Virus record (IMG/VR): IMGVR_UViG_3300030098_005108
Coordinates: 1-59,532 of that record
Source: a virus
Strand: one strand, 5' to 3'
Length of the DNA stretch: 59,532 bases
Part shown: piece by piece, positions 21,501 to 59,494 of the stretch
Position numbering within the stretch: the first letter of the stretch is position 1
Layout: each line of letters starts with the position of its first letter
Notes under the pieces: model-generated
Database searches by the model: none
What the model was told of the DNA's origin: nothing
The model's input: the letters and a program-made list of their open reading frames with translations, nothing else
Translations under genes and position numbers: made by a program

Positions 21501-24500
21501 TTGGTGATGCTATAATGAATAAACAAGGCACTTCTTTTGTGGTAATTGAAATCAAAGAAGATCCCACGGTTATGGGAGGTAAAATATTTAAGTCTCGCCA
21601 AGCCCTAATGACTCAAGAGCTGAAGATGAAACAGGGAATTTATCTTGCAGAAAGGGTGTCTGAAAAAATAACAAGTAAAAAGTCTCAAGCAGACGTAAAA
21701 AAAAAAGACCAACCAAGGGTAGTTCCTAAAACAGAGCAATATCAAAAAACAGAAGCAAGTTTAGAAAAAGGTGCTCGTCAGATAAAAAAAGCTGATATAC
21801 AAAAAGGCACAGGTCCTAATTACTTTATAAAAACTCCAGAAGGAGAAACTATTCAATATAGAGATTTTGACAATATTTCTGATAAATATGTGTTAGATGA
21901 AGGCGCTAATGTTGAATTGCGTTTAAGAAAACCAATTAAAGGTCAAGAAGGCGTTGTTGAAGTAGATGGCAAATTATATTTTCAATTTGATAATCTTTTA
22001 TATGAAACTGAAATAGAAGTTGTTATAAACGGTGAAGTTGTGGGTAAGGTGGCTCAACGAGATTATAAAGCCAAAGAGCCTACAAAAAAAGCCAAGAAAA
22101 AAGATACACGTAAGATAGATCAGCTAATAGGTGCTGTAAAAGAATCTAAAGAAAAAATTAAAAAGTATTTTACTAGAGCTCAAAAAGATATTCCTGATTA
22201 TAATCCAGAATCTTTAACTATAGATCCTTTGTATCGTCATGGTACTGGTATAGAGGCGAGAACAATAGTTGAGGATATAGTGCAAAAAAGATTTCCTGGA
22301 TCAAAAGGTTTTGTGGCGTATACAGCACTAACAGATGATTTTGGTCAAGAGGCATCTTCTTTGGCTATTGGCTCTACTATATTTATAAATGAAAACTCAG
22401 TAAAGCAATCAGATATAATTCACGAAGCTGGGCATATCTATTATAATTTAATGGGAGACACGCCATTAATGAAAAAAATTAAAAAGCTTTTACCTAAATC
22501 AGAGTTATATCAAAAAACTAAAAAAGACTATCCAGAACTTACTTTAATGAAGTTTAAAGATCTTAATATGACATTAGGTCTTATCTATAGAGAGATATTT
22601 AAAAATACAAACAAAGAATATGATTCTTTTCCAGATTTAGTTGATATTGCAAATAATATTGCTGCTGCTGAAAAAGCAGGAGATAGCGCTAGAGTTAATG
22701 ATTTATTTGTATCTCTTAGAACTCAGTTAAAAATTAATGGAGGTAAAGATGTAAGGGTGGATAGACAAAAACACTTGCTTGAAGAAACATTCACAAGAAC
22801 ATTAGAGTCATTCTCATACGGCACTGTAGATGCTGTTGTAAAGGGTTCTGCTGCTCAAAAGCAACTAGAAAAAGATTTAATACAATTCTATAAAGAAACT
22901 AAAAAATTAGCCACAGAAGAAGAGGCTAGAAAACTACTAGATCTTAGTGTAGACAATATAGCTTCGTTAGATTTAGAAGCCGCAATGAAGCATATACTAT
23001 TAGATTTTAATTCTGCCGATAGAACTGTGCCGTATATAATGAATTCTGCATACGGTCCCATTAATAAAGCTAATAAAAAAATATTAAGAAATACTGCTTC
23101 TTATTCAGCGGTATCTTTTTATATATCAGAAAATATACAGCTTGAAGATAACGAGCAAATTGTTAAAAATGTAATGCAGTTAATAGCTGACGACTCTGCA
23201 TTAACATTAGACAATAAAGATGTAAAAGATTTAGAACAATATATACATTCTATAATTATACAATTAAAAGATAATAAGAATCTTAAAGAGGCAGATAGGA
23301 TATTAGACGAGAGATTATCTGGAATTGGATTAGGAGGAAAACACAAAGAAGGAGAAAATGTAAAAGAAGCTTCTGAAGAGACTGATAGAGATAAAGAAAA
23401 GCTAAGAGTACTTCCTACAACTACAACTAATTTTATCAAAAAGATAGTAGAGTATTACAATAGAGATAAGGATGAAAAAAGCATGATAAGCAGCAAAAAG
23501 ATATTGTCTGCTATAATGTCTTTAGCAAAAGAAACAAAAAACAATCCTTATTCTTTTATTATTGAGATGAGAAAATCTTTGAATCCTAATATACAGAATA
23601 TGGTCATGACTATGGATCAAATTTATTCTCAGGTGGAAGGATTAACTAATCCCAAAAGATATACTAACGCTAAACTTGTAGAGTTGAAGGGGCCTATAGA
23701 AGGAATTAATATAGAGGTATTAGCTCATAATGTATTAAGCATAGGCGATAATGGGCAGAGAGCTTGGTATAGAAATTTGTCTACTAACATGACTATAGAA
23801 AAAAAGGTGTTAGATAGTATACTTAAAGGCCTAGAGGATAACACTCAAAAAGAAAAAGATATTGCAGAGGTATATAATAATTTATTTGACGATACAAACT
23901 ATCTGCAATCAATTAAAGATAAAAAGAAAGTATATAGAAGAAATGATATTATTGCAAGAAACAATTCTGCTGAAAAAATATTAAATATATTATTTGATTT
24001 AGAAAACGGAGAGTTTATAAATAAAGATGTTTTATTGAACAATCAGATAATGTTCAACGGAAAAAAGCAATTTATTCATAATATATTATTTGATCATACT
24101 ATACAAAAACAATTTACAACCGACAAAGGAAAGACTATAAAATTAAAAAAACCCAATATAATATTAAAGAATAAAGATATTTTTACAGTTTTTGATACAA
24201 GAAACGATCAGAAAAAATTCACCCATAAAGGGGTAAATGATTATCAAGCAAAAGGAGTTTTTCGTGATAAGCAAATAGAAATAAGGAATATAGTGACTCA
24301 AGGCCTAGTTATGTCTAGAGCAGAGAACTATATAACTATGATAGACAATGTAGAGCAAGATGGTGTTAGCGTTTTAAATAAAGATAATGGATTTTGGAGT
24401 AGAACAAAAAATGTTTTTGAAGTTGCTAATAGCGGTGTAAAGTTTGGTGAAAAAGATTTAATAAATCCAGAACATAATATTTTTGTAGCAATGGCTCAAC

Positions 24501-27500
24501 TGCAAGGGAAAGAAGAGGGTAAGAATTATTTAAATCCTTTTAATATTACTGTTCATTCTGGAATGATGAGATACTTTGAAAAAGACACTCATGGATTAAA
24601 AAATAAAGAAGGCCTCGCTAGAAAAGCAAATGATGTAAATCCTAACGAATTAACGGTGGGAGACTTCTTTATGTTTTTATCAAGATACAATGAAGGCAAA
24701 AGAAATAATGAAAAAACAATTTACTACGATCAGCCTATTGCTGTATTTGCCGATAAAAGCAGAAGGTATTATATACAAAGTATAATAGCTCATGATGCTA
24801 AAAGCAGAAAAGCTTTATTATCTAGAATAGCAAAAAATCCTGCTTATAAAAATAAAGATAAAAATAAATATAAGCTTGGCGATGAAGTGTTCCCTTATAA
24901 AATTAAGAATAATAGACTAGTAGGAGAAGACATGAATACTCTAATAAAAAATTGGAGAGATTATATGCAAAAAAATAGAGAATTATTTTTAAATAATAAA
25001 GATCTTAAAAAAGTTTTAGACTCTAAAAGGCAACCCACTAATGAGGTATTAGAAGCCTTTCTAACTTCTTATATAGCTAACAAGTTTATGGCTCAACAAT
25101 TATTTGTACATGATCATAGACAGTCTGATAATGAAATAGATTATATCAAGCGTGCTGCTGGTGCAATTGCTGGGCATACAAATTTTGACAGAAATACTTC
25201 TGTAGAATTTTTTGTAACTAATGATTATTATGTAGCAAAAGATGATAAAACTATTTTTACAGAAGAAGGGGCAAAGGTAGAATTTGGAGAAAATTGGAAG
25301 AAAGAGGTTGCTGTTGAAAATGATGCAATGGGATATGTACTTCCAAAACAAGCTGAATTAATAAGAGCTAAATATGGTGACTCTCAAAAAGTAGGAAGTG
25401 TATTTAAATTTGTATATCATTATACTGAGTTAGACGGCCCATTAAAAGACAGAACTACTTATATGAAGTTTGCTGTACACACTTTAACTAAAGAGATGGA
25501 GGATTCAAGCCCTTATTTAAAAAATCTTGGAGAGGCGTTAAGAGAAAGAACTAAAAATGTTAGAAAAGCATCAAAAGAAAATGGGAAGGGTGTTGGTAAT
25601 TTAATAATAGGAGCCTCTAAATCAGCAGCCAAATTATATGCAGGAGAACAAAGATTTATTCATGATATAACTTCTATAGATAATATGGAGGAAATGTTTG
25701 ATAAGCAAGACGAAATATATAAAGACGCTGAAGGATATAGAGGATTGTCTGGAGAAGGATTTGGTATACAGTTGGAACTTGACAAACAAACAGACGAAAG
25801 ATTCTTCCCTTCACAGTTATTTTATAATTTATTAAATAATATAACCGAAGAAAATAGAGAGAGCGTAGCAAGAATGCTTCAACTTAGAGAAAAAGTAATG
25901 AAGGCTAATAACGAAAAAAGAAATTCTTCCATTATAGAGGTAGGTGAAAATAAAAATATCTTTAAGGAAAGAGATTCTTTTAAGTCATCTGTTACAGCAG
26001 ATATATATGATATATTAGTAGAAAGCTCCTATGATAATTTACATCCTATGTATCCCTATTTAAATGCCCCACATAACGCTGTTGCTACAGGACGTATCAC
26101 TCATAAAGGAACTAAGATGTATACTAAAGGATCTATAGGTTATCAGTCCTCTAGTATAGGAATGGGGCTAAGATCATACCAAAAAGGATTATATAAAGGT
26201 CAAGCAAATGAATATATAAAAAATGAAGATATAGTAGTGTCTGAAGCTATAGTTCCTGGATACCTAAAAGATGACGGTGTTAAGGTGGGAGATCTGTTTA
26301 TCGGAACAAGAGTCCCTGCTCATGGTAAAGTAAGTAGTTCTGTTTTTATAGTAAAAGGTTTTCACAAACAAGTTGAAGGATCTCCTAATTCTAATGTAAC
26401 TATACCAGCATGGGTGAGTAAATTTTGGGGAGCTGATTTAGATGGAGATTCTATACATATGAATTTTAGATGGACTAATGAGGAGGTAGCCAAGCGAGAA
26501 TGGAAAAAAGATTCAAATGAATTTTTTGATAGATATGTGGCCTTAGTTAGTCAAAAAGAAAAAGAAAAAGAAATAAAAGCTGATATTGATTTTGTTGGTC
26601 CTGCTAAGAACGCTATTGAATTAAGAGATAAAATTTATGGGGTTCCAAAAACATCTAAAGAGTCTCAATTAACCCCAGAGGGTGACGGTAAAATGTTTGA
26701 AGATAACGTTCCAGCTAAACATTTAGTAGGTAGAATAGCCGCTCTAATGAGAACTTTTAATGTATTCTCTAATAGTCAAGATAGATTACCTGTAAAAATA
26801 TCTATTAAAAATAAAGAAGGGGTGGTAGAGCACGATAAGTTTTTTGATAATCCTTCTTTAGAAAACAATATAGGTAATTGGTATGGTGTAGCGCAATTAC
26901 TTAATATAGCATTAGATAATGCAAAATATCAATATGCTAGTCAATTAGGGATGAATCAAGAAAGTATATTCTCTTATGTTCTTTTAAGAAGATTAGGCTA
27001 TTCTTTAAATGATTTAACCCTTATGTTTAATGCGCCTTTCGTTAAAAAATATTTAGAATATAAAAGAGCTAAAAGCAAAAACTATATATCTAAAGATAGC
27101 GACATAATGGAAATGTTTGCAGATAAGAATAGCGAATTCAAAAAGAATGATTTTGCTGATTTTATGGAGGAGAATCAAATGATACCAGATATTAAATCTA
27201 TAATTAAAAATGAAAGAGTAGACATAGATATAAATAATATTACAAATAAAGACCAACAACAGAAAATTATAGAATTAATATATATATTGGATAATTATGA
27301 TAGTGTTTTAGTTAGTCCGTTTTCAAAAGCCTTTACTGTTCACCAAACTATTGAAAAAAATCCTTTAGAACTTAATAAAATACATAGCGCTATAGAAACG
27401 ATAATTAATAATACTATAAACGGACAGAGAAATACAATTTTAGGATGGGGAGGTGAGTATTTAAATTATGAATTAGAAAACAATACAATAAATAATCCAA

Positions 27501-30500
27501 TAGTAACACATGGGGTTGGGCTATTTAAAACTATGTTGGATAGGGCGGAACAAACCGATATAAGATATAGCCCTTATATTAGAAGAATATTAGAGGGTAA
27601 ATCTAAAGAAGTATTGAATAATTTAGGAGAATCTAAATCAGAAGTTATTAATCAGGTAATTGCAAATAATATAAGAAAGCAGTCTGGCTTAATAAATCGT
27701 GTTGTAAAAAAACCGATGTTAATTAAAGAGTTTAAAGAATTAAAAGAAAATACAAGAGAGAATTATTTTCTAGATAGTATAATACAGATTTCTGAAGACG
27801 AAAAAAATATTGTAATTAATAGGCAAACAATAACAGACTTTACTTCTTATAAAACTATTCAGCAAGCAAAAGATGCCTTTGCTGATCTATCTGAAACGTC
27901 ACAAGATTTAATTTTTGAGATAGAGTATCTTTTTAATTTATTTGGATATAAAGGAGGTGCTGGACAAGCCTCATCATTCGTTCCTTTCTTTGATGATAAA
28001 TATGTTGAAAGAATTAATGATGGCATGAACAAGGTTATTGAGCATAATAAAACAGCTTTTGCTGAACTTAATAATGAGGGTGTTTCACAAGAACTGCTTG
28101 ATGCTATTGAAGATGTACAAAAAAGAAAAGCAGGTCTTGACAGTTTAAGCGCTAAGAAAGAAAGAGATATAGCGTCTAAAGACAATAACAATATATATCC
28201 AAATCCTATAAAAAAACCTAAAAAGGTTATTACGGCTGACACATCTTACAATAATGATCATTTAGGAGGTGGAGTAGAATTTATGTCTTTTCCAAAGTGG
28301 GCTGCTGATAAAGGTATTGATATATCTAAAATAGAAGAAGACTCTAATACATTTAGAATACTTACGCAAAATTATAGTAAATATAAAGACCATTTAAGAT
28401 TAGTTAGAGAATTTGAAGCCACGCTAGAGAAAAAACCCTTAAGTAAATATACTATGGAGGGATTATATGATGAAGCGAGGAAGTTTAGAAAAATGGATAA
28501 TTCTGCCACTAAAGGCATAGCTTATACAATAGAAAAAGAAATAGGACAAAGAGCATTTCAAGAACAAGCTAAATATTTAAGAGACGTAGGGGCTAGTAAA
28601 GGATATGAATATAATATTCCTGGAGTAGACGGTGTAGCTCAAGATGATTTAACTAATTTTCAAGCATGGTTAGGCTCTAATAATATGACGTCTAAAAGGC
28701 CTGAGATACAGTATTTAATTAATGAAGCTCAAAAAGAATACAGAAAATATATGCGAAGCTTTAAAGAGCATAAAAATTTAATAGAAGAAAAAAATAATGC
28801 TTTAAAGAGATCAAAATTAAAAGGCCTTAGTATATTAGAAAGAGTAAGAAAAGGATTTGATTCTAATGCTCGTTATCAATATATATATGGCAATATAGCT
28901 ACTGTAGAAAATGGTAATGTTAGGTTATTTACTCCAGAAGAAATAGTAGAAAATGGAGTGGAATTAACGAGGCAAGAAGAAGAATACTATGCCACATATA
29001 AAGCTGTTGCTGAGATATTATTAGGATCAGAAGGCGGTGAGACTATAGTTCCTGGAATGCAAATGGGTACTTCTGAGAGTATGGCAAGAAGCGGCTTATT
29101 TGGTCTTTACAGCTCATCTATTGATTCTTATGACTATAATAGGGTTAAGGTTTATGGAATAGATGCAAATGGCGACAGAGCCTTAAAAACGTTTTATGAA
29201 TGGAAGTATGATGTTTATAAAGGAAGAACAGGAAAGCTTAAATTAAAATCTGGTAGAGAAATATTTGAATTAGACAAACTTAGAAGAAAAGCTAAAGAAC
29301 TTAAGGCTAAAGGTAAGCATGAAGATAATAGTAGGATTATACTGTCTGATGTAGAATATGATGCATTAGTAAATAATGGAGCAATGCTTAAGAGAATGAT
29401 TGGTTATGATAAAGTAAGCGATATTGATGCTGAGTTAATACAAGAATACGAAAGAAGAAAAGGGGTTAGAGCCCAAAACATTTCTTATGATATTAATACT
29501 ACATTATTAGAATTTACTAGAAGCCATATATTCCAACACGGTGAAGGCTTATATAAGCTGGAAGATGGACGGCCTGTAGAAAGAGAAGATCGTTTTACTG
29601 GTATGGGTAAAGTCGCAATACTTACAGATTCTATTATAGGATTTAATAAAAACTTAGATAATAAAAATGCTGTTAGATATTTAACAGGATGGTGGAAAGA
29701 AGGATTTTTAGAGAAGAAACAGCAAGTTGGTATATTTGGTAAGACAGGAGACAAGGTTATTGATACCTTTGTTAGACTAACATCTTTACGATTGCTTGGA
29801 TTTAATATGAGCATTGGTATTGGTAATACGCTTGCTGGTAAATATCAAGAATTACGTAAGCGTGGAGGAAAACAATTTATAAAAGGAGAAGCCAGGTACT
29901 GGAAAAATCTTTTTAGCTCAAGAGATATATTAAAAAAATATAGAATTATTGAATATAGTTTTGATGAATTTATGCACCTTTCTGAAAGAAAAGGAACTTG
30001 GGGCAAAATAGAAAGATGGTCTTATATGTTTATGGATGGCACAGAAAGCTATATTCAAGGTGCTGCTTTCTTGGGAGAATTAACAGATGAAGAATTTAGA
30101 ACAGGCGAGATATCAGAAGAAAGAGTAATGCATATTAATCATAAAATATCTACATTACACGGAGAAGGATATACTGCTTTAGACGCTAGTTTACTTTCTA
30201 TGTATTCTTATGGTAGAGCTTTATTACAGTTTAAGAAATGGTTTATTACTTTAATAGGAGATAGATTTAAAGCTGAAGACATAGATAGATTTGGAGATGT
30301 TAATATAGGTAGTTATAGAGCAAGCTCTGAATTTATAACAGATTTATTTAGAAAATATTTTGCTGGAGGAATAACTAAAAAAGAAATAATAGATATATAT
30401 AATAATTCTAGCGAAAAGAGAAAAAGAGAAATGCGTAATCATGTTGCTGGAATAGGTATAGGGGTTACGTTATTATCTTTAATTGCTATAATGGAAGATG

Positions 30501-30826
30501 ATGATGAGCCAGATACTAAAACTCTTAGAACGCTTAAAAAACTTTCTCATGATGTATTTATTACAACCGACCTAAGAAGGTTTGTAAATTACACTGCGGT
30601 TCCATCATCTTTTAGTACATTTAAGAATGCTAATAAAATGATCTATGAGGCCGTGAGAGACGATAAGGTTAAGCGTACTGGACCTTATGGTAAAGCGGGA
30701 TCATCACAAGCAATTAAAACTATGAGGTATGAAGTCTCTCCATTTGCAGAGGCTAAAAAAGATTTAGCTAATCTATTATATGAGGGTCCTTCTGAGAAAA
30801 AGGAAACTAGTTCTTTAATTAGATAA
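18581..30826 (+). CDS. Giant virion protein: zincin + DxDGD RNA polymerase (4081 aa)
   Basis: Residues 1281-1285 are HEAGH, a zincin metallopeptidase motif; Glu1401/1402 in HLLEETFTRTLE is a candidate third zinc ligand. At about 2574-2580 TRVPAHG and at 2619-2623 D-L-D-G-D (within FWGADLDGDSIHMNF) reproduce the R-x-P ... DxDGD layout of the double-psi barrel that holds catalytic Mg in beta'-type RNA polymerases. Upstream, HKGTKMYTKG (about 2508-2517) may be the lysine-bearing partner barrel. Residues 650-800 are Lys/Glu-rich coiled coil, and about 3740 begins a helical C-terminus. crAss-like phages inject such polymerases to transcribe early genes; theirs are usually shorter or split. It may be a polyprotein processed by its own zincin (inference). 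Confidence 0.85.
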   Translation: MADNDYTSGLNDILGNLSKPTPIPQSPEQDIKNLYEGEMQSTPSGLGGLIENSIQSNTINDIAFDQYAQGVAAGQMGDAMYAGLDAERYGPAPQQQITDPNAMIGSTGQRVARGLKAGWGDLVSGTGDTIDWISAAIKPGEGDLTTSVGSYLKKVGTEYQNENALILAEDLQEIEWHDMFDGEFWSSKMSRLVPYALSFILPSGVGAVGATRMLGRFGPTMLKSMKESGKFGRMSRGGGKGIGGVDISKAGRAGFKGQAGSGVLGQIGIDLGKQGYKPTKLLRNTTAFIGAGTAGNLAEGAYLSGEAYQEMINEVDENGQPMFTPQEAAHHAAGVMVDNAAWIGVDAMQYALLFGGLGRGVMGRLLKSTVTKKPFGENMKALTGMLARRAADTPVAATYLSAEALTEGFQEVFQEWAKYAEIQEAKGEDWDSWTTWMKEAPLGENAMLRDVFWSSFGLGAVMGGARGYYDAYAERKKKLDDKIDGWNNIIELAKEGERNPRIYQKKYGEAIDNSLADTVWDYYGDGSVAMAMIDNYVKDKLMTEELAEERKSLIENMEKMYEKHTINSGLTEAGAKQAFRVEVVLSDLNRQESALKERYQGWIKQQKEIFKNDKDKLNKILEQGEIEFKGEYRAPVEDEVSLETIRFQKDQFNQRLEDIYARRLDQAPVAKSTGKRDARFKKEGLDQEKYEKWTQEGEKQKQEREKAEAEAKAKEKTGIFETVKDLGGKAVEGVKSLFGKAKESQAWKDVAEATKGIATKSWAAMGEALKKGAEKRTESMARRMVIEEGKKRVNRTNYSKAIEEIKNGKINSAKQILKQGVIVDKNDIENIKDLYNVDDAGANAIINKILDNDIKNIEAKLKENPNLTGEELKELIIKEMTSEKGKEAISSILNKVKERFKKKDTKKTEEETIDVEYEDVTEKTLTEKEYLEKLKKDRKKDGSIVTILDENSFKTEIFKKGKLIKKENIDDIKVGDAIMNKQGTSFVVIEIKEDPTVMGGKIFKSRQALMTQELKMKQGIYLAERVSEKITSKKSQADVKKKDQPRVVPKTEQYQKTEASLEKGARQIKKADIQKGTGPNYFIKTPEGETIQYRDFDNISDKYVLDEGANVELRLRKPIKGQEGVVEVDGKLYFQFDNLLYETEIEVVINGEVVGKVAQRDYKAKEPTKKAKKKDTRKIDQLIGAVKESKEKIKKYFTRAQKDIPDYNPESLTIDPLYRHGTGIEARTIVEDIVQKRFPGSKGFVAYTALTDDFGQEASSLAIGSTIFINENSVKQSDIIHEAGHIYYNLMGDTPLMKKIKKLLPKSELYQKTKKDYPELTLMKFKDLNMTLGLIYREIFKNTNKEYDSFPDLVDIANNIAAAEKAGDSARVNDLFVSLRTQLKINGGKDVRVDRQKHLLEETFTRTLESFSYGTVDAVVKGSAAQKQLEKDLIQFYKETKKLATEEEARKLLDLSVDNIASLDLEAAMKHILLDFNSADRTVPYIMNSAYGPINKANKKILRNTASYSAVSFYISENIQLEDNEQIVKNVMQLIADDSALTLDNKDVKDLEQYIHSIIIQLKDNKNLKEADRILDERLSGIGLGGKHKEGENVKEASEETDRDKEKLRVLPTTTTNFIKKIVEYYNRDKDEKSMISSKKILSAIMSLAKETKNNPYSFIIEMRKSLNPNIQNMVMTMDQIYSQVEGLTNPKRYTNAKLVELKGPIEGINIEVLAHNVLSIGDNGQRAWYRNLSTNMTIEKKVLDSILKGLEDNTQKEKDIAEVYNNLFDDTNYLQSIKDKKKVYRRNDIIARNNSAEKILNILFDLENGEFINKDVLLNNQIMFNGKKQFIHNILFDHTIQKQFTTDKGKTIKLKKPNIILKNKDIFTVFDTRNDQKKFTHKGVNDYQAKGVFRDKQIEIRNIVTQGLVMSRAENYITMIDNVEQDGVSVLNKDNGFWSRTKNVFEVANSGVKFGEKDLINPEHNIFVAMAQLQGKEEGKNYLNPFNITVHSGMMRYFEKDTHGLKNKEGLARKANDVNPNELTVGDFFMFLSRYNEGKRNNEKTIYYDQPIAVFADKSRRYYIQSIIAHDAKSRKALLSRIAKNPAYKNKDKNKYKLGDEVFPYKIKNNRLVGEDMNTLIKNWRDYMQKNRELFLNNKDLKKVLDSKRQPTNEVLEAFLTSYIANKFMAQQLFVHDHRQSDNEIDYIKRAAGAIAGHTNFDRNTSVEFFVTNDYYVAKDDKTIFTEEGAKVEFGENWKKEVAVENDAMGYVLPKQAELIRAKYGDSQKVGSVFKFVYHYTELDGPLKDRTTYMKFAVHTLTKEMEDSSPYLKNLGEALRERTKNVRKASKENGKGVGNLIIGASKSAAKLYAGEQRFIHDITSIDNMEEMFDKQDEIYKDAEGYRGLSGEGFGIQLELDKQTDERFFPSQLFYNLLNNITEENRESVARMLQLREKVMKANNEKRNSSIIEVGENKNIFKERDSFKSSVTADIYDILVESSYDNLHPMYPYLNAPHNAVATGRITHKGTKMYTKGSIGYQSSSIGMGLRSYQKGLYKGQANEYIKNEDIVVSEAIVPGYLKDDGVKVGDLFIGTRVPAHGKVSSSVFIVKGFHKQVEGSPNSNVTIPAWVSKFWGADLDGDSIHMNFRWTNEEVAKREWKKDSNEFFDRYVALVSQKEKEKEIKADIDFVGPAKNAIELRDKIYGVPKTSKESQLTPEGDGKMFEDNVPAKHLVGRIAALMRTFNVFSNSQDRLPVKISIKNKEGVVEHDKFFDNPSLENNIGNWYGVAQLLNIALDNAKYQYASQLGMNQESIFSYVLLRRLGYSLNDLTLMFNAPFVKKYLEYKRAKSKNYISKDSDIMEMFADKNSEFKKNDFADFMEENQMIPDIKSIIKNERVDIDINNITNKDQQQKIIELIYILDNYDSVLVSPFSKAFTVHQTIEKNPLELNKIHSAIETIINNTINGQRNTILGWGGEYLNYELENNTINNPIVTHGVGLFKTMLDRAEQTDIRYSPYIRRILEGKSKEVLNNLGESKSEVINQVIANNIRKQSGLINRVVKKPMLIKEFKELKENTRENYFLDSIIQISEDEKNIVINRQTITDFTSYKTIQQAKDAFADLSETSQDLIFEIEYLFNLFGYKGGAGQASSFVPFFDDKYVERINDGMNKVIEHNKTAFAELNNEGVSQELLDAIEDVQKRKAGLDSLSAKKERDIASKDNNNIYPNPIKKPKKVITADTSYNNDHLGGGVEFMSFPKWAADKGIDISKIEEDSNTFRILTQNYSKYKDHLRLVREFEATLEKKPLSKYTMEGLYDEARKFRKMDNSATKGIAYTIEKEIGQRAFQEQAKYLRDVGASKGYEYNIPGVDGVAQDDLTNFQAWLGSNNMTSKRPEIQYLINEAQKEYRKYMRSFKEHKNLIEEKNNALKRSKLKGLSILERVRKGFDSNARYQYIYGNIATVENGNVRLFTPEEIVENGVELTRQEEEYYATYKAVAEILLGSEGGETIVPGMQMGTSESMARSGLFGLYSSSIDSYDYNRVKVYGIDANGDRALKTFYEWKYDVYKGRTGKLKLKSGREIFELDKLRRKAKELKAKGKHEDNSRIILSDVEYDALVNNGAMLKRMIGYDKVSDIDAELIQEYERRKGVRAQNISYDINTTLLEFTRSHIFQHGEGLYKLEDGRPVEREDRFTGMGKVAILTDSIIGFNKNLDNKNAVRYLTGWWKEGFLEKKQQVGIFGKTGDKVIDTFVRLTSLRLLGFNMSIGIGNTLAGKYQELRKRGGKQFIKGEARYWKNLFSSRDILKKYRIIEYSFDEFMHLSERKGTWGKIERWSYMFMDGTESYIQGAAFLGELTDEEFRTGEISEERVMHINHKISTLHGEGYTALDASLLSMYSYGRALLQFKKWFITLIGDRFKAEDIDRFGDVNIGSYRASSEFITDLFRKYFAGGITKKEIIDIYNNSSEKRKREMRNHVAGIGIGVTLLSLIAIMEDDDEPDTKTLRTLKKLSHDVFITTDLRRFVNYTAVPSSFSTFKNANKMIYEAVRDDKVKRTGPYGKAGSSQAIKTMRYEVSPFAEAKKDLANLLYEGPSEKKETSSLIR

Positions 30827-53409: not shown

Positions 53410-53417
53410 CAAATATA
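53410..53417 (-). promoter_or_regulatory. Bacteroidetes-type -7 box TATATTTG
   Basis: Minus strand TATATTTG just downstream of the zinc-ribbon gene's stop, with 18 bases to the helicase ATG. No -33 TTG at 19-21 bases. It probably adds a second start for the helicase unit. Confidence 0.5.
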
Positions 53418-53840: not shown

Positions 53841-53858
53841 TTGATTATTATTAAGTAG
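53841..53858 (-). repeat. Post-terminator box, copy 4 (CTACTTAATAATAA)
   Basis: Directly after the T-run of the terminator at 53863-53880 the minus strand reads CTACTTAATAATAATCAA. It shares the CWACTTA...AATAA pattern with copies at 59372, 59265 and 58565, each also directly after a terminator. It lies 11 bases before the next gene's ATG. Candidate phage promoter or processing element. Confidence 0.55.
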
Positions 53859-53880
53859 AAAAAGGGGGCCTTAGCCCCCT
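53859..53880 (-). terminator. Rho-independent terminator after DUF932 gene
   Basis: Minus strand AGGGGGC TAAG GCCCCCT followed by TTTTT, a 7-bp stem with a 4-base loop. It ends 9 bases after the stop at 53889. Strong, and followed at once by the CTACTTA box. Confidence 0.8.
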
Positions 53881-53888
53881 CGCTTCTA

Positions 53889-54746
53889 TTAGTATGCTTT
53901 CAAAAACTTAAAAGCTTTTTCATTCATTTTTCCACAAGCGCCTGTTAATATAGATTCTTGTTGTCCATACTCTCTATTAGGAGATGACTTTTCATGTGTA
54001 GTATATTTTGTTACACCATTAAATACACCCCATTTAGTATGTGATATTCTGTTAGTTTCCATATATATACAGGCACTAAGGTCACGTACCATGTTTGCTT
54101 TTCTAGTAGATATTGGCAACTTATCTGTATTAGCCAAATAATCAACCAAGTCATTTACTAAAGATGGTGTAGCTGACTGATTGCTAAACATTTGCAAATC
54201 AGCAATTTTATTTTCTTGATCTACAAAATTTAATATACTAGGCAGTTGTTTAACCTTATCTTGTATAGATTTTGTATGTTTATATCCAGAAAATGCATTA
54301 CCTGATAGCCATGCAAATTGATTTTGACAGAATACTACTTTATTCATAAAACCAAATTTTAATGATGTAGTACCATCATGGCCATTTATAGCATATATAT
54401 ATTGTTCGGTTTCTTGATCACCTATGTTAATAATATTATTTGGTTTTTTCATTTGAACAACTACTTTTCTGCCGCCATTAAATGGTATTGCTTTTACAAT
54501 CTCTAAATCATTTTCACCAGCAATCTCTTGCATAGTTTCTATAATTGTATGATTTTGTGTAGGCTCGTAACTATCTGATACTGTAGTGAATACTTCACCC
54601 GTATCTTCTCTTACTATACCATAGTATGGCGTATGATGTAATCCATTGTTTGCTTCAGGCGTACATTTACCCGCATACATTAATGGTTTTTTAATTACAT
54701 TCCAGTTAAGGTCATTTTGTTCTAAAATTTGTTGTGTATTAAGCAT
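53889..54746 (-). CDS. DUF932 (phage/plasmid-like) protein (285 aa)
   Basis: 'LMYAGKCTPEANNGLHHTPYYGIVREDTGEVFTTVSDSYEPTQNHTIIETMQEIAG' and 'YIYAINGHDGTTSLKFGFMNKVVFCQNQF' match the DUF932/TIGR03299 pattern found on plasmids and phages; role poorly defined, often near DNA metabolism genes. Length is typical. Last gene of the early operon; a strong terminator follows. Confidence 0.7.
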   Translation of the reverse strand: MLNTQQILEQNDLNWNVIKKPLMYAGKCTPEANNGLHHTPYYGIVREDTGEVFTTVSDSYEPTQNHTIIETMQEIAGENDLEIVKAIPFNGGRKVVVQMKKPNNIINIGDQETEQYIYAINGHDGTTSLKFGFMNKVVFCQNQFAWLSGNAFSGYKHTKSIQDKVKQLPSILNFVDQENKIADLQMFSNQSATPSLVNDLVDYLANTDKLPISTRKANMVRDLSACIYMETNRISHTKWGVFNGVTKYTTHEKSSPNREYGQQESILTGACGKMNEKAFKFLKAY

Positions 54747-55194
54747 AGTCTAATTCTAATTTAGTTAATAATTCTTCTGGAGTACCATTAAATATAACTT
54801 TTTCTGCCCATACATCATAAGCACGAATATAGATACTTCCTTTTCCTTTTGTGTAAATAGTATAAGTAAATTCTTCACCACAATCTTTAGAATCAGGATG
54901 ATGTATGTATATATTGCCTGGACTATCTTTAAAGTGTGCAATTAATTGTGCAGCAAGACACCCCATTCCATTAGCAACTCTTATTTTATCATCTCTTAAT
55001 CCTAAGCCATTAACAATTTTAAAGTCTTCTAAGAAATGAGCTAAATCGTGTCCATGTCCAGACATATAGCCATCATACTGACGATACATACAAAGTATGT
55101 TTTCTGTTGTTTTATGTACTTCATTATTATTTTCTTCATCGGCTACTGCAGTTTCCCATGATTCTTCTATATAAGTTAAACTTCTTGTTCCCAT
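54739..55194 (-). CDS. Conserved 'MGTRSLT' family protein (151 aa)
   Basis: Start 'MGTRSLTYIEE' then 'CMYRQYDGYMSGHGHDLAHFLEDFKIVNGLG' and 'GMGCLAAQLIAHFKD': the pattern of a widespread small protein family of bacteria and phages (MGTR-x-L-T ... YrQ-DGY-x-gHG). Function unknown. Overlaps the DUF932 gene by 8 bases, so the two are coupled. Confidence 0.65.
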   Translation of the reverse strand: MGTRSLTYIEESWETAVADEENNNEVHKTTENILCMYRQYDGYMSGHGHDLAHFLEDFKIVNGLGLRDDKIRVANGMGCLAAQLIAHFKDSPGNIYIHHPDSKDCGEEFTYTIYTKGKGSIYIRAYDVWAEKVIFNGTPEELLTKLELDYA

Positions 55195-55205
55195 AATTAT
55201 TTATT

Positions 55206-55415
55206 TTATTTTGTTAATTCTGATATTTCCCAATCTTCATTACTAATTTCCATTTGTTCTAATTCTTTTTCGGCTACTAAATCCCATATACCTTGATCGC
55301 CTTCAAGTATTTTATTATTAATTATATCCATATGTTTTCTACCGTCATCTGGAAATTTTAATGTAATATATGTGGTATATGTTCTATTTATTACCACTTG
55401 ATATTCTTTATGCAT
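55206..55415 (-). CDS. Small early protein (69 aa)
   Basis: 'HKEYQVVINRTYTTYITLKFPDDGRKHMDIINNKILEGDQGIWDLVAEKELEQMEISNEDW': a small alpha/beta fold, acidic. Overlaps the 34-codon gene at its start by 8 bases. No recognised family; one of the dense early genes. Confidence 0.55.
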   Translation of the reverse strand: MHKEYQVVINRTYTTYITLKFPDDGRKHMDIINNKILEGDQGIWDLVAEKELEQMEISNEDWEISELTK

Positions 55416-55512
55416 TGTCTTTTATTAATTTAGTTAATAATTTTACTAATTTTTCCATAGCTACAGCTACTCGTTTTATATCATTGTGTAATTCTTTTTC
55501 AGCTTTTGTCAT
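55408..55512 (-). CDS. Very short helical protein (34 aa)
   Basis: ATGACAAAAGCTGAAAAA ... GCATAA encodes MTKAEKELHNDIKRVAVAME and then KLVKLLTKLIKDNA, one amphipathic helix. It overlaps both neighbours (14 and 8 bases), the coupling style of the rest of the operon. No family. Confidence 0.5.
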   Translation of the reverse strand: MTKAEKELHNDIKRVAVAMEKLVKLLTKLIKDNA

Positions 55513-55813
55513 AATATTCTTTTTTTTGCACTGGCGTCATTTTCTTTTTACTTTTACTAGCAACTACAAGTTTAGTATTACTATATTTTAATAGATATAT
55601 CATTTCTTTACACAATTCTTTTAGTTCATAATAAATTTTTTCTTGATCAGGGCTGTCATAAGTTATAGCTATTTCATAAGAAAGATCCCAAAATCCTTCA
55701 TCGTGGCTTTCATCTCCATAATCCATATCAAACCAGCCTGATTCATATTTTTGTACTATATCTAGGTTTTTTAATATTTCAGCACGTAAATTATATTTTT
55801 TCACTATATTCAT
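55499..55813 (-). CDS. Early hypothetical protein (104 aa)
   Basis: Acidic, aromatic: 'GWFDMDYGDESHDEGFWDLSYEIAITYDSPDQEKIYYELKELCKEMIYLL', then a basic end (ASKSKKKMTPVQKKEYYDKS). No recognised family. The start overlaps the upstream gene by 23 bases. Confidence 0.55.
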   Translation of the reverse strand: MNIVKKYNLRAEILKNLDIVQKYESGWFDMDYGDESHDEGFWDLSYEIAITYDSPDQEKIYYELKELCKEMIYLLKYSNTKLVVASKSKKKMTPVQKKEYYDKS

Positions 55814-56051
55814 AATAATAATTTTTAATTCTTTCTATTATATCTCTACCATTTTGTGTATGAAAACCATAGCTATGTGTATATAACACAGGTATTGGTT
55901 TGTTTTCTACTAATAAATGAAACAAGTCCCACTCATTGTTATAGTCCATATCTTGTTGTGTTTGATTTATAGCTTCTGCCATAGCATAAGCATTATGTTT
56001 ACATACACCATATTCATTAGTTAAGTAATTAGTTATTTCTGTTGCCGTCAT
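55791..56051 (-). CDS. Early hypothetical protein (86 aa)
   Basis: Helical N-terminus ('TATEITNYLTNEYGVCKHNAYAMAEAINQTQQDM') and a 'HSYGFHTQNGRDIIERI' stretch near the end. No recognised family. Overlaps its upstream neighbour by 4 bases (ATGA). Confidence 0.55.
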   Translation of the reverse strand: MTATEITNYLTNEYGVCKHNAYAMAEAINQTQQDMDYNNEWDLFHLLVENKPIPVLYTHSYGFHTQNGRDIIERIKNYYYEYSEKI

Positions 56052-56311
56052 AAGTCTAATTTTATTTGATTTTTACTAGGTTGCCATTGATAATAATAAA
56101 GAGTATATGTTTTATCTCTACCAAATTTATCTGGAAACATTTGTTCTCCAAGTAATGGGGTGTCTTGATCTATTATCATTTTCTTATCGCTATATCTAAC
56201 AAGTATTTTTTCATTAGTATACTTATAGGGCAGGGCAACAAGATCAAACCCAGAGTGTCTAGGATTAACCTTGTAGCCCGCTATAAGTTTCTTTAAGAGA
56301 TATGACTTCAT
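56048..56311 (-). CDS. Early hypothetical protein (87 aa)
   Basis: Beta-rich, basic: 'KSYLLKKLIAGYKVNPRHSGFDLVALPYKYTNEKILVRYSDKK', then 'YTLYYYQWQPSKNQIKLDL'. No recognised family. Coupled by ATGA overlaps on both sides. Confidence 0.55.
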   Translation of the reverse strand: MKSYLLKKLIAGYKVNPRHSGFDLVALPYKYTNEKILVRYSDKKMIIDQDTPLLGEQMFPDKFGRDKTYTLYYYQWQPSKNQIKLDL

Positions 56312-56568
56312 ATCACTGGTATTGTGCCTAGCTCTTCAAAAGAAGTAAGCATAGCGCCACCGTCATTACCTTCATCATCCATTTGAGGGGTTATAATAGA
56401 CCCGTCTTCTAAATGTATTGTTATAGGGCGTTTATGCCACATAAAATCTTTTAGCATATCTTGAGGCAAATATTCCACTTTAACTATTTTTTTACCAATT
56501 AAATATTTAGCCGCTAAATCTGTCCAGTATTGTTCTACTGATTTTCCATCAATTGTTATTTCAGTCAT
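56308..56568 (-). CDS. Early hypothetical protein (86 aa)
   Basis: 'EQYWTDLAAKYLIGKKIVKVEYLPQDMLKDFMWHKRPITIHLEDGSIITPQMDDEGNDGGAML': a small beta domain with an acidic Gly-rich loop. Proteins of this look ('L-x-G-x-x-I-x-x-V-x-Y ... i-i-L-x-dG') are frequent in phage early operons. No function known. ATGA coupling both sides. Confidence 0.55.
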   Translation of the reverse strand: MTEITIDGKSVEQYWTDLAAKYLIGKKIVKVEYLPQDMLKDFMWHKRPITIHLEDGSIITPQMDDEGNDGGAMLTSFEELGTIPVI

Positions 56569-56813
56569 TTTATTTTACTTTTATATGTTCTTGTATTCTT
56601 TTGATTATCAACGTGTTGTACGGTTTTTAATGTCCATAATGCTGTTTCTTTTTTAACAGTATTATAACATTCTTGTATCAACTCTTCTCTTTGCTTTTCA
56701 ATAGATCTTGTAGGATCTACTGTAATACTTTGACCATAATTAATTTTAATAGCTTCAAAATTACCTATATTAATAGTTTTGCTAACATTAAATGATATTG
56801 TATTAGTTTCCAT
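56565..56813 (-). CDS. Early hypothetical protein (82 aa)
   Basis: 'ISFNVSKTINIGNFEAIKINYGQSITVDPTRSIEKQREELIQECYNTVKKE': beta start followed by a helix, then a basic tail. No recognised family; within the early operon. Confidence 0.55.
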   Translation of the reverse strand: METNTISFNVSKTINIGNFEAIKINYGQSITVDPTRSIEKQREELIQECYNTVKKETALWTLKTVQHVDNQKNTRTYKSKIK

Positions 56814-56815
56814 AA

Positions 56816-57064
56816 TTATTTATTTATAAAACTTTTGCTACGATTATACATTTCTTCTGTTTTTTTTCTTAAATATTTTACATCAAGAAAATAATTGTAT
56901 TTACCTAAGAATTTGTCATCAAATTTACTTAGAGTGTCTTTTAATTTATTTATAGTTTTAGGAACTTCTCTTTTAAGTTTAGATTGTTTTAAGCTATCAC
57001 TTATATATTCTTTCCATTCACCATATGATTTTGTAAGGTTTTCTCCTATTTTATTTACTTTCAT
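56816..57064 (-). CDS. Early basic helical protein (82 aa)
   Basis: 'KVNKIGENLTKSYGEWKEYISDSLKQSKLKREVPKTINKLKDTLSKFDDKFLGKYNYFLDVKYLRKKTEEMYNRSKSF': Lys-rich, mostly helical, no membrane span or known motif. The opposite-strand frame here is a shadow. Confidence 0.5.
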   Translation of the reverse strand: MKVNKIGENLTKSYGEWKEYISDSLKQSKLKREVPKTINKLKDTLSKFDDKFLGKYNYFLDVKYLRKKTEEMYNRSKSFINK

Positions 57065-57075
57065 TTTATTTAATT

Positions 57076-57300
57076 TTAATCAGTTGTACATACAATATCG
57101 TATCCCCATTCTTTTAAAGAATTGATGTCAGTTTCTAAATGGTTTATTAAAAATGATATAAACTCCTCAACATCATATATTCTTTTTTCAGGCATATTTT
57201 TATCTATATAATAACTTATATCGTAATTAAGGAATGTGTTTTCTTTTTCACAAATTTCCTCATCTACTCTAATTTTAAGTGTTATTTCTTTTTCTATCAT
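57076..57300 (-). CDS. Early acidic protein (74 aa)
   Basis: Small alpha/beta, acidic: 'EKEITLKIRVDEEICEKENTFLNYDISYYIDKNMPEKRIYDVEEFISFLINHLETDI'. The start overlaps the Api92-like gene's end by 4 bases. No recognised family. Confidence 0.55.
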   Translation of the reverse strand: MIEKEITLKIRVDEEICEKENTFLNYDISYYIDKNMPEKRIYDVEEFISFLINHLETDINSLKEWGYDIVCTTD

Positions 57301-57845
57301 TTTATTTTAATTTTAGCAGGCTTAATATCAGCCACATTCATAGTTATTGTTTCTGTTTCTTCTTCACATATAAGGCATTTAGCTTCTCCATGGAAATCAT
57401 CTTCGTCAAATGATACTTCTCCTTCACAGCATTCTGATGCTTGATCTAAGTCCCAATGATTATCTTCAAATACTCTTTCGTGTTGAGCGAATAATTTACC
57501 GCCAAAGCACATACCTGGCTCTTCGTATTCTAATGTAAAGCATAAATCAGGAAAGTTTTTCATAATATTTTCTATCCAATCTATAGGAGGGCTCCAAGCT
57601 GTTTCAAATGATACAGCAAAGTAATCTATATCATTGTGATTTATACAGGCTTCACAAGCGTCCCATTTGGTTCCCCAATTTTCTATGCTCCAATTGTACC
57701 AATCTTTACGATCACCACGTGGCAGAGTACCTTCAAATGAAAACTCATCATTTTCTTTAATATTTATTGTTGATTTTTCTACGAATTCTCGTAGTTGTAT
57801 TTCATCACCTGATACTTCTAAGTGATTCCAGCACCAATTTGGCAT
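57297..57845 (-). CDS. Api92/YubB-like (DUF1281) ferredoxin-fold protein (182 aa)
   Basis: 'MPNWCWNHLEVSGDEIQLREFVE', 'NWGTKWDACEACINHNDIDYFAVSFETAWSPPIDWIENIMKNFPDLCFTLEYEEPGMCFGG': the strongly conserved core of Api92/YubB-like phage and plasmid proteins. The C-terminal 60 residues add a Cys-containing segment (SECCEGEVSFDEDDFHGEAKCLICEEE) that could bind zinc. Function of the family is unknown. First gene of the dense early operon. Confidence 0.75.
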   Translation of the reverse strand: MPNWCWNHLEVSGDEIQLREFVEKSTINIKENDEFSFEGTLPRGDRKDWYNWSIENWGTKWDACEACINHNDIDYFAVSFETAWSPPIDWIENIMKNFPDLCFTLEYEEPGMCFGGKLFAQHERVFEDNHWDLDQASECCEGEVSFDEDDFHGEAKCLICEEETETITMNVADIKPAKIKIK

Positions 57846-57867
57846 AATTATTTGTTTTTAGTTAATA

Positions 57868-57893
57868 AAAAAAAGAAAGAGGGAGGCTGTCCC
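57868..57893 (-). terminator. Weak hairpin with long T-run
   Basis: Minus strand GGGA-cagcc-TCCC (57893-57881) followed by CTCTTTCTTTTTTTT. The stem is only 4 bp, but the T-rich tract is long. It precedes the Api92-like gene by about 20 bases and may end transcripts read through from the right. Confidence 0.4.
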
Positions 57894-58045
57894 ATTTGTT
57901 AATTGTAAATTAATTTTTCAATATTAATATTCAATTTATTGTTGTTTGTCAATATTACAGCCCATAATCTTTACAAAGTATAACCGCTGAGTTAATAATT
58001 AATAATGATTATAACCCTCTTTCTTAGCCTATTTGTAAAAAGGAA
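57894..58045. other. AT-rich gene-free stretch
   Basis: No ORF of supportable length on either strand. It contains the palindrome AATATTAATATT (57919-57930) within a run of TTGTTGTT and CAATATTA motifs, and a minus-strand TATACTTTG that is one base off the -7 consensus spacing. It could hold a promoter or a replication-related site, but nothing decides this. Confidence 0.35.
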
Positions 58046-58105
58046 GGGAGTAGTAATAACCGCTACGCGTTAGTTATCATTCCGTGGCCACACGCACCTA
58101 CTCCC
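58037..58105 (-). ncRNA. Structured RNA candidate C with terminator
   Basis: Minus strand GGGAGTAG (58105-58098) pairs with CTACTCCC (58053-58046) across 44 bases, followed by TTCC and TTTTT. The interior holds the palindrome GTGGCCAC and an ACGCGT-centred hairpin. No convincing ORF. The decanucleotide AATCACGAAC, also in RNA B, lies upstream (58153-58144). Closing-stem-plus-44-nt-interior is the same geometry as RNA A. Confidence 0.5.
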
Positions 58106-58163
58106 AACCTGTTTAAGTATAGTAATCAGCTACCATATGCGTGGTTCGTGATTTACACCTATA

Positions 58164-58547
58164 TTATATTTGAGATGCTAACTCTCTAATCTGTTGAGGA
58201 TTAAGCTTGTTAGCTATTGTATTTGTTTTGAATCTGTTTCTATGCTTAGTAAAAGCATTAACTATTTTATAATATCTTTTAATAAACTTTCTTCTAGCTG
58301 ATTTGTAGTCATTATTACTCCAGCTAACTCTTTTCATAAGTTCATTATATGTGGGCAATACTCTAGTATCTCCATTGAGATATGTTATTGTAAGTTTTGC
58401 TTTGTTAACGTGCTTGATTATCCAATCAGCATTGTTTTTTCTAAATGATTGATGCGCAATATCATATTGTGATATCTTTCTTTTATCAAGTAGTTTTTTT
58501 AAATCCCTCATATATTCTGATGAGATTTCATAGATTTCTTTTTTCAT
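58164..58547 (-). CDS. Early basic helical protein (127 aa)
   Basis: Helical and very basic: 'ISSEYMRDLKKLLDKRKISQYDIAHQSFRKNNADWIIKHVNKAKLTITYLNGDTRVLPTYNELMKRVSWSNNDYKSARRKFIKRYYKIVNAF'. No recognised family. The stretch 'KISQYDIAHQSF' resembles a short HTH-like turn, but the rest does not fit. It follows a terminator and the CTACTTA box. Confidence 0.55.
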   Translation of the reverse strand: MKKEIYEISSEYMRDLKKLLDKRKISQYDIAHQSFRKNNADWIIKHVNKAKLTITYLNGDTRVLPTYNELMKRVSWSNNDYKSARRKFIKRYYKIVNAFTKHRNRFKTNTIANKLNPQQIRELASQI

Positions 58548-58564
58548 AGTAAAAGTATTTAGTT

Positions 58565-58580
58565 AGTTATAAATAAGTAG
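58565..58580 (-). repeat. Post-terminator box, copy 3 (CTACTTATTTATAAC)
   Basis: Directly after the T8 of the terminator the minus strand reads CTACTTATTTATAAC, then TAACTAAATA. Against copy 2 (CAACTTAACAATAAC, then TAACCAAGTA) it matches at most positions including the following TAAC-y-AA-r-TA. It precedes the 127-aa gene by 17 bases. Confidence 0.55.
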
Positions 58581-58604
58581 AAAAAAAAGAGCCACAAGGG
58601 CTCT
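58581..58604 (-). terminator. Rho-independent terminator after membrane protein gene
   Basis: Minus strand AGAGCC-cttgt-GGCTCT followed by eight T. It begins 3 bases after the stop at 58607. Strong stem and U-run. Confidence 0.8.
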
Positions 58605-58606
58605 CT

Positions 58607-58867
58607 TTATTTCTTATTTTTATACTCGTCCATTACTACTGGCTCGTCAGGAGATGGAGTCATAGCAGTAAAGATGGAGAACAATACTCCTGCAATAACA
58701 GCAGTGGCTAGTCCACTAAATGTTCCTATAAATAATAGAGGAAGTAATAGTGTAAATAATATATCCCAGAATGTCTGAGTTTTTACTAGTCTCCGTCTGC
58801 CTAAGGCTTTATATACTATGATATAATAACCTATGGCAGCGAAGAATGCTATTCCTAGAATACTCAT
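58607..58867 (-). CDS. Small membrane protein (86 aa)
   Basis: Two hydrophobic stretches: residues 3-19 (ILGIAFFAAIGYYIIVY) and 35-67 (ILFTLLLPLLFIGTFSGLATAVIAGVLFSIFTAM), with a basic linker (ALGRRRLVKT) and an acidic tail. No family recognised. The start overlaps the preceding gene's stop (TAATG). Early expression suggests a host-interaction role, unproven. Confidence 0.6.
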   Translation of the reverse strand: MSILGIAFFAAIGYYIIVYKALGRRRLVKTQTFWDILFTLLLPLLFIGTFSGLATAVIAGVLFSIFTAMTPSPDEPVVMDEYKNKK

Positions 58868-59235
58868 TAGAACGGCAAGTCAGCTTTCTTACTTGCTTTC
58901 TTTCTAGTTTTCTTTGTAGGAGTTTCTACTATTTCTCTCTCCTCAACGCTAGGTTTAAGCACTTGTGCTAACGCATCTAGAGCTTTGTCTGCATTTTTAG
59001 GAGTGTAATCATTAAGAATAGGTGTATGAGATAGTTTGTTGTCTCCTACATTCTTGTTAGGAATTAACTTTAGGTTAACCCATTGATTACCATTAGAATC
59101 TGTATTCATATTGTCTTTAACAAATGAGCAGAAGTCTGCTACATTGATAGATACATTAAGAATTTTAGTTCCTGAATTAAATGTATGCTCTCTAACGAAC
59201 ATACCTTTTGCTAACGTGTTTTTGTTTTCTGACAT
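58867..59235 (-). CDS. Early ssDNA-binding-like protein with DLPF tip (122 aa)
   Basis: Beta-rich body ('GMFVREHTFNSGTKILNVSINVADFCSFVKDNMNTDSNGNQWVNLKLIPNK') then helix and a basic linker (TPTKKTRKKASKKADLPF). The last residues DLPF resemble the SSB tip also seen as DEDMPF in the gene at 50434, though the flank here is basic instead of acidic. It could be an early ssDNA-binding or SSB-mimicking protein. First protein gene of the leftward region. Confidence 0.55.
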   Translation of the reverse strand: MSENKNTLAKGMFVREHTFNSGTKILNVSINVADFCSFVKDNMNTDSNGNQWVNLKLIPNKNVGDNKLSHTPILNDYTPKNADKALDALAQVLKPSVEEREIVETPTKKTRKKASKKADLPF

Positions 59236-59264
59236 TTTAAATTGTTTTAATTAATACTTGGTTA

Positions 59265-59285
59265 GTTATTGTTAAGTTGAAAAAA
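59265..59285 (-). repeat. 21-bp direct repeat, copy 2
   Basis: Identical to 59372-59392. On the minus strand it is a T6 run followed by CAACTTAACAATAAC. It directly follows the 3' end of RNA B and precedes the first protein gene by about 30 bases. Confidence 0.7.
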
Positions 59286-59369
59286 AGATATAACCGTTGC
59301 CTCTATCTCTGGTCGGTTAACTACTAAGCACTCTAGAATACTGTTCGTGATTGTTATAAGTTATATCTT
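59280..59369 (-). ncRNA. Structured RNA candidate B
   Basis: AAGATATAAC pairs with GTTATATCTT (59285-59294 with 59360-59369, 10 bp) around 65 bases; inside, TAACCG can pair with CGGTTA (59314-59319 with 59291-59296), overlapping the outer 3' strand by four bases. A T7 run follows. No ATG within. It carries AATCACGAAC, shared with the RNA C leader. The overlapping stems allow alternative folds, as in an attenuator. Confidence 0.5.
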
Positions 59370-59371
59370 AT

Positions 59372-59392
59372 GTTATTGTTAAGTTGAAAAAA
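59372..59392 (-). repeat. 21-bp direct repeat, copy 1
   Basis: Identical to 59265-59285, 107 bp away. It starts in the T-run of RNA A's terminator and ends just before the RNA B closing stem. Confidence 0.7.
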
Positions 59393-59480
59393 GGGGCTGT
59401 GCTAAGCCCCTCTATGATAGAATGCTGATAACAAGTAGGTTACGACAATTATTATGGATAGCACGCAGCGCATTCTATAA
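59387..59480 (-). ncRNA. Structured RNA candidate A with strong terminator
   Basis: It starts a few bases after the TATATTTG box. ATAGAATGC pairs with GCATTCTAT (59470-59478 with 59417-59425, 9 bp) around 44 bases. Then GGGGCT-tagcac-AGCCCC (59410-59393) and T6 form a strong terminator. Length about 90 bases. It may be a non-coding transcript or the mRNA for the 23-codon ORF inside it. Confidence 0.6.
59402..59473 (-). CDS. Possible 23-aa hydrophobic peptide inside RNA A
   Basis: ATGCGCTGCGTGCTATCC ... GCTTAG encodes MRCVLSIIIVVTYLLSAF followed by YHRGA: a single membrane-spanning peptide with a basic residue near each end. The start lies 13 bases downstream of a -7 box and the stop falls in the terminator loop. 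The start codon is inside the RNA's closing stem, so translation would be hindered. Could be chance; the size and hydrophobicity recall type I toxin-like peptides. Confidence 0.3.
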   Translation of the reverse strand: MRCVLSIIIVVTYLLSAFYHRGA

Positions 59481-59486
59481 AGTTTG

Positions 59487-59494
59487 CAAATATA
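59487..59494 (-). promoter_or_regulatory. Bacteroidetes-type -7 box TATATTTG, early region
   Basis: Minus strand TATATTTG is the rightmost promoter-like element in the window and points at RNA A. The region upstream (59495-59532) is AT-rich; the window ends before a -33 region can be judged fully, and no TTG is seen. Confidence 0.5.

Follow-up and report, generated by a model that had tools for sequence, protein, structure and literature searches.

Which signal starts transcription of the early genes in a crAss-like phage that encodes a putative virion RNA polymerase (vRNAP)? The question is raised by the IMG/VR virus record IMGVR_UViG_3300030098_005108, a linear and probably incomplete sequence of 59,532 bases that is called the window here, in its whole length. 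The plus strand carries its late genes, which reach to ~46.8 kb; from there to the right end the minus strand is taken up by an early/middle cluster. A short box occurs four times in this cluster, each time directly after a run of T. We consider it likely that the box is an early promoter read by the vRNAP in one clade of marine crAss-like phages. The motif, its position and its context can be read off the sequences of the window and its relatives; promoter activity is what they point to.

The box in the window and in related phages

A preliminary description of the window, made from its letters alone, had proposed that four minus-strand T-runs are each followed by a box. All four pairs are present:

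59369..59386, minus strand: box 1, CAACTTAACAATAACATA, after T6 at 59392-59387; predicted transcription start (+1) near 59373
59262..59279, minus strand: box 2, CAACTTAACAATAACTAA, after T7 at 59286-59280; predicted +1 near 59266
58563..58580, minus strand: box 3, CTACTTATTTATAACTAA, after T8 at 58588-58581; predicted +1 near 58567
53841..53858, minus strand: box 4, CTACTTAATAATAATCAA, after T5 at 53863-53859; predicted +1 near 53845

The continuation TAACyAArTA, noted in that description after two of the boxes, is found as TAACCAAGTA and TAACTAAATA at 59280 and 58581. Box 2 precedes the gene of a 122-amino-acid (aa) protein (58867-59235, minus strand) and box 3 a 127-aa gene (58164-58547, minus strand).

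Relatives were gathered via DnaB (80 loci) and a DUF932 protein (12 loci). Eleven related records were analysed whole (the scripts took in 12 whole records); G002, G010 and G014 stood outside these whole-record analyses, and the distant relative G012 was excluded from most motif counts. The full form of the box is a T-tract of 4-10 T, followed by [CA]nAC, TTAAYAATA, a purine (R) that is the putative +1, and MTAA.

A matrix built from the window's four boxes only, with the T-tract left out, was scanned over 10 other records. It gave 18 matches of at least 14 bits, against 6.0 of any kind in shuffled sequences, and 17 of the 18 lie on the early strand, in intergenic sequence and with TTTT just upstream, a class that makes up 0.41% of positions. 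Conversely, a matrix from the relatives alone ranks the window's boxes 1, 2, 3 and 5 among all window positions on both strands. Their scores are 24.5, 15.4, 14.1 and 13.5, and the mean best score in 60 shuffles of the window is 14.3 bits. A single box is thus only moderately improbable in an AT-rich genome, so the case rests on context and on relatives. The strict core TTAAYAATARMTAA has nine exact matches in 11 records (0.67 expected from shuffles), all nine on the early strand, intergenic and after a T-tract. In the IMG/VR contigs as a whole, 19 sites in 13 stretches carry TTTT(N)CAACTTAAYAATARMTAA, and every one of these stretches encodes proteins of the clade; a looser pattern returned 19 stretches, 18 of the clade and one unrelated (L139). 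There are up to six copies per genome, standing before unrelated genes and also before structured noncoding RNAs. Absence from relatives had been named beforehand as an observation that would speak against the proposal; the box recurs in them.

For further comparison, 29 boxes were listed by early strand, T4 and at most two mismatches. Because these were the selection criteria, the strand, the T4 and the core match are not independent evidence within this list, and G006 33430, at least, appears to be a chance match.

Boxes, terminators and noncoding RNA units

The preliminary description had regarded each terminator and its box as one coupled module for termination and restart. The structures in question are the following:

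59387..59410, minus strand: intrinsic terminator ggggcttagcacagcccc plus T6, before box 1
58581..58608, minus strand: intrinsic terminator hairpin plus T8, before box 3; fold -12.1 kcal/mol, z -3.13
53859..53879, minus strand: intrinsic terminator gggggctaaggccccc plus T5, before box 4; fold -16.5 kcal/mol, z -2.65
59280..59373, minus strand: noncoding RNA B, from box 1 to box 2; closing stem GATATAAC/GTTATATC, near-invariant loop, T7
59387..59479, minus strand: noncoding unit RNA A, with a terminator hairpin in addition to the closing stem ATAGAATGC/GCATTCTAT; fold z -2.82

All four T-runs of the proposed terminators exist; the terminator at 59280, however, is not a local GC hairpin but the long-range closing stem of a ~95-nucleotide (nt) RNA. 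The coupling as described is not supported: some boxes have no hairpin, and some terminators have no box. What stands before the first box in the divergent control region is TATTTAGCTGnnTAATTTTT, and no hairpin there reaches the terminator cut-off. Among distinct first-box sequences, a box with at most three mismatches is present in 13 of 13 and a GC hairpin in none. The leader genes of L009 and L142 likewise have a box and no hairpin. On the other side, 12 of 12 distinct leader-gene terminators in early sense lack a box at the customary distance of 4-5 nt; L129 comes closest, with two mismatches at 6 nt. Since each occurs without the other, box and terminator are two independent signals that happen to be adjacent. 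The hairpin-free copies keep the T-tract, which argues that the tract is part of the box; where a terminator precedes a box, the T-tract of the putative promoter and the U-tract of the terminator are the same bases.

The same evidence bears on the idea that a special terminator has the box as its downstream half, or that the box is a termination signal for the virion polymerase. Most boxes do stand 3-5 nt after a hairpin and T-run, and in phage P23-45 a conserved 26-nt motif at seven termination sites has been attributed to its vRNAP (PMC10770324). Boxes without a hairpin at the start of the early region, and leader terminators without a box, make this very unlikely, and we rejected a terminator element as the principal explanation because the two signals separate in both directions.

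Where they are adjacent, the box is the more constant partner. Paired changes alter the hairpin of the DUF932 terminator (gggggctaacgccccc, gggggttaacaccccc), and different phages have different genes after it; the box stays. Among 24 distinct G4-hairpin-T4 sequences, 16 have the core with at most two mismatches at exactly 4 nt, and 23 have it with at most four mismatches within 3-7 nt, the exception coming from G012.

The control region between the leader gene and the first box is itself conserved (G001 22140-22450, G003 62905-63200, G006 33270-33580). It holds a repeated TATTTAGCTG and the palindrome-like TTGACATTGTCAA and TTGATAATCAATCA, and it is possibly an operator, an origin or a packaging site.

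Box 1 leads to RNA B and not to a called gene, and RNA B ends in the T7 that precedes box 2. Identity to this RNA is 95% in G003 and 94% over 83 nt in G011, a record whose polymerase shares 49% identity with that of the window in the aligned core; the locus coordinates of RNA B outside the window are L131 2402-2505 and L068 4402-4492. The loop of ~70 nt is almost invariant, and the closing stem shows three compensatory pairs of eight in a comparison of three sequences only. That level of covariation was reached by 18 of 500 shuffles, and the fold is no better than shuffles (z -0.34). RNA B has no Rfam match, and its core pattern was found in none of the genome contigs searched; the Rfam search gave a single sub-threshold match (SpR18, E 0.88), which was discarded. 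RNA A, with homologues in L003, L018 and L009, has a host-type TATATTTG or TATCTTTG in front, although it lies inside box territory. Other units leading from a box to a noncoding RNA are present in G001, G004, G006, L003, L009 and L024.

These units suggest where transcription would start. Judged by eye, the first base of the closing stem is the purine after TTAAYAATA itself in G003 and L009, and the base after that purine in G004; in other units (window, G001, L024) the stem starts several bases further on. Within the core, G is frequent at position 9 only (7/29, with 21 A and 1 T). For these two reasons the start is predicted at the purine of TTAAYAATA-R(+1).

Boxes that launch noncoding units with the closing stem at this purine argue against an AT-rich translation leader of the early genes. 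Many T-run and box sites do lie ~17-47 nt before an ATG; the box is also rare in early intergenic stretches that have no T-tract, and we consider a translation leader extremely unlikely, having rejected it on the evidence of the noncoding units. A phage repressor or another regulator with binding sites spread through the early operon would equally account for a repeated, oriented and intergenic box. The strict orientation, the coupling to a T-tract and the alignment with predicted RNA 5' ends suggest a start signal instead; no search for a regulator was made, and the chance that the box is such a site seems to us close to negligible.

A predicted two-barrel polymerase and two promoter territories

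A promoter for a vRNAP implies a polymerase, and the preliminary description had held that one is encoded. The features that bear on this, and on the division of the genome between two types of promoter, are:

18581..30826, plus strand: 4081-aa protein with a predicted two-barrel RNA polymerase (RNAP) core; catalytic-loop motif DLDGD at 26435-26449
6423..13352, plus strand: crAss muzzle protein PF25731
52102..53391, minus strand: dnaB, which encodes the replicative helicase and is the gene that opens the host-promoter territory
53410..53417, minus strand: host-type TATATTTG before dnaB, at the boundary where box territory gives way to host-promoter territory
59487..59494, minus strand: host-type TATATTTG before RNA A

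The muzzle protein (E 1.2e-134 in a family profile search) sets the phage among the crAss-like phages. In a 22-row alignment of the conserved core of the giant protein the motif GADLDGD is invariant, and the 4081-aa protein carries ADLDGD. The core modelled from this alignment reached a predicted local distance difference test (pLDDT) of 68.1 and a predicted template-modelling (TM) score of 0.66; an earlier model from seven rows (pLDDT 44.9) was too poor for use. The best Foldseek match of the model by far was 6vr4_A, the virion RNAP of phage phi14:2 (E 4.9e-15, probability 1.00, TM 0.55), followed by QDE-1. VIA-align gave Z scores of 13.3 (571 residues) for 6vr4_A, 14.2 (425 residues) for QDE-1 and 9.5 (344 residues) for gp96 of P23-45, and a profile comparison with the phi14:2 protein gave E 1.4e-5 (probability 80%). 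A sequence search of the core against PDB chains found nothing, a Pfam search of the core returned weak unrelated matches only, and PF00623 appeared below cut-off in two of six records. The modelled fold and the DxDxD loop thus bear out the earlier claim of an encoded vRNAP, and homology to phi14:2 suggests that the protein would be present in the virion. The T7-type family PF00940 gave no match in six records, where its control was silent too, so that this search is uninformative. The polymerase would be a single chain without a sigma factor, of a fold related to RNA-interference polymerases.

The promoter element of Bacteroidota hosts is TAnnTTTG. The boxes had been described as unlike it, and indeed TAnnTTTG is absent from them and occupies a separate territory. 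All 29 listed boxes lie on the early strand 463-9753 nt upstream of the dnaB start. TAnnTTTG within 120 nt of an early-strand gene lies at or below +47 relative to that start in 42 of 45 cases, with conserved places at the dnaB promoter (+22 to +29) and at about -1443; the three outlying sites belong to the leader of G003, the late region of G007 and the second dnaB copy of G011. Intergenic TAnnTTTG is found 70 times in sense and 13 in antisense among late genes, and 46 against 24 times on the early strand. The box thus repeats in early orientation and keeps to the early region. The genes after the boxes lack TAnnTTTG, as had been claimed, but the early region is not free of it: TATATTTG stands at 59494-59487, a site outside the 45-site count as it has no gene within 120 nt.

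This TATATTTG is one argument for reading the box as a promoter for host RNAP with an alternative host sigma or a phage-encoded helper; another is that the assignment to a polymerase is drawn from sequence and fold. We consider such a promoter unlikely, given that the box has no TAnnTTTG, that the two motifs keep to separate territories, that no Sigma70_r4 domain was found in the six phage records searched (control positive) and that a vRNAP of the phi14:2 fold is encoded.

At the two contig ends of G011 (1712-2998 and 67027-68304 of the oriented record) we observed two dnaB genes, each ~68% identical to that of the window.

In our preferred scheme, a virion-packaged, sigma-less, two-barrel RNAP would recognise the box, and the upstream T-tract would belong to the promoter. 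Where an operon ends just upstream, this tract would double as the U-tract of an intrinsic terminator, so that termination and the next start would directly adjoin each other. Between the divergent control region and the sequence just before dnaB, the early cluster would be split into short independent units, coding or structured noncoding, and the middle and late genes from dnaB onwards would use the host-type TAnnTTTG. One may go further and suppose that a polymerase stopped in the U-tract is already on the next start, so that the early region would be a stop-and-restart relay with many structured noncoding RNAs. The polymerase that runs it would be a single chain lacking sigma, and its promoter would hold all the information. 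We regard this extension as rather unlikely.

Weighing the proposed vRNAP promoter against known systems

The vRNAP promoter put forward in the preliminary description remains the best reading, favoured by the motif in relatives and by the polymerase fold. Several observations weigh against it. The box was not found in phi14:2 or crAss001, the two best-studied crAss-like phages, nor in the distant record G012, and would thus be restricted to one clade. G011 has loosely similar elements only, with zero boxes passing the filter. No box was found in G008, a record that ends ~1.4 kb upstream of dnaB. Because the genomes have a common ancestry, boxes at homologous sites cannot be counted as independent. 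The window itself has early T-runs without a recognisable box (a terminator-like T8 at 57874-57867 and a T5 at 58041). Lastly, the early class of phi14:2 includes replication genes, reported as transcribed by its vRNAP (PMC10136315), whereas here dnaB and later genes carry host-type boxes. The early intergenic stretches of G012, inspected by eye, showed no convincing substitute element; in G017 (RNAP 42% identical) each of three terminators is followed by an AT-rich stretch ending in TATA-purine, which is suggestive only.

The closest known counterpart is the vRNAP of the crAss-like Cellulophaga phage phi14:2 (PDB 6vr4), which is responsible for rifampicin-resistant early transcription (Crassvirales review, PMC10136315). 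It is a giant protein with the same fold over the modelled core, and its early genes lie on the strand opposite to the polymerase gene; one difference is the lack of the box found in the window's clade. Transcription classes of crAss001 (PMC8375218) and crAss-like metagenomic genomes (PMC7886860) have also been described. In P23-45, gp96 is a two-barrel vRNAP fused to a giant tail-tape protein, and an AT-rich motif occurs at starts, in relatives with the vRNAP and not in those without it (PMC10770324). The P23-45 starts were measured and those proposed here are read from sequence, and the two motifs are likened by description only. The vRNAPs of AR9 and phiKZ also use an extended AT-rich motif repeated before early genes (PMC5312081). 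The AR9 consensus, AAATATATATTAT-6N-G, has its start 6 nt after the element; the letters of the box differ, and its predicted start adjoins it. Comparison of the aligned boxes by eye did not reveal the AR9 consensus.

N4 likewise has a giant virion RNAP for early genes and hairpins near the starts, and its promoters depend on a small hairpin in a fixed position. Here the hairpins differ in sequence, the T-runs have 4 to 10 T and some boxes lack a hairpin. We rejected an N4-like hairpin promoter on these grounds, the hairpins being variable or missing.

In the literature searched, to which subscription papers did not belong, the accessible texts describe no promoter motif or start-site choice for a crAss-like virion RNAP. 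A box with a predicted start base beside natural noncoding reporters makes this choice directly testable, and the box may serve as a simple marker that tells vRNAP-dependent from host-RNAP-dependent genes in uncultured marine members.

The early region has other features. The T8 without a box belongs to a long noncoding stretch between two early genes (57860-58163, minus strand) that contains several inverted repeats and ATCACGAAC, which also occurs in RNA B. The 122-aa first early protein (58867-59235, minus strand) had no family match in a profile search; it ends in DLPF and its relatives in NLPF and similar, ends that recall the C-terminal tip of single-strand binding proteins. In the late region, the plus-strand gene at 37510-40143 codes for an 877-aa protein with a signal-peptide-like start and many GCTDPxxxNYxxxANxDxGSC-like repeats.

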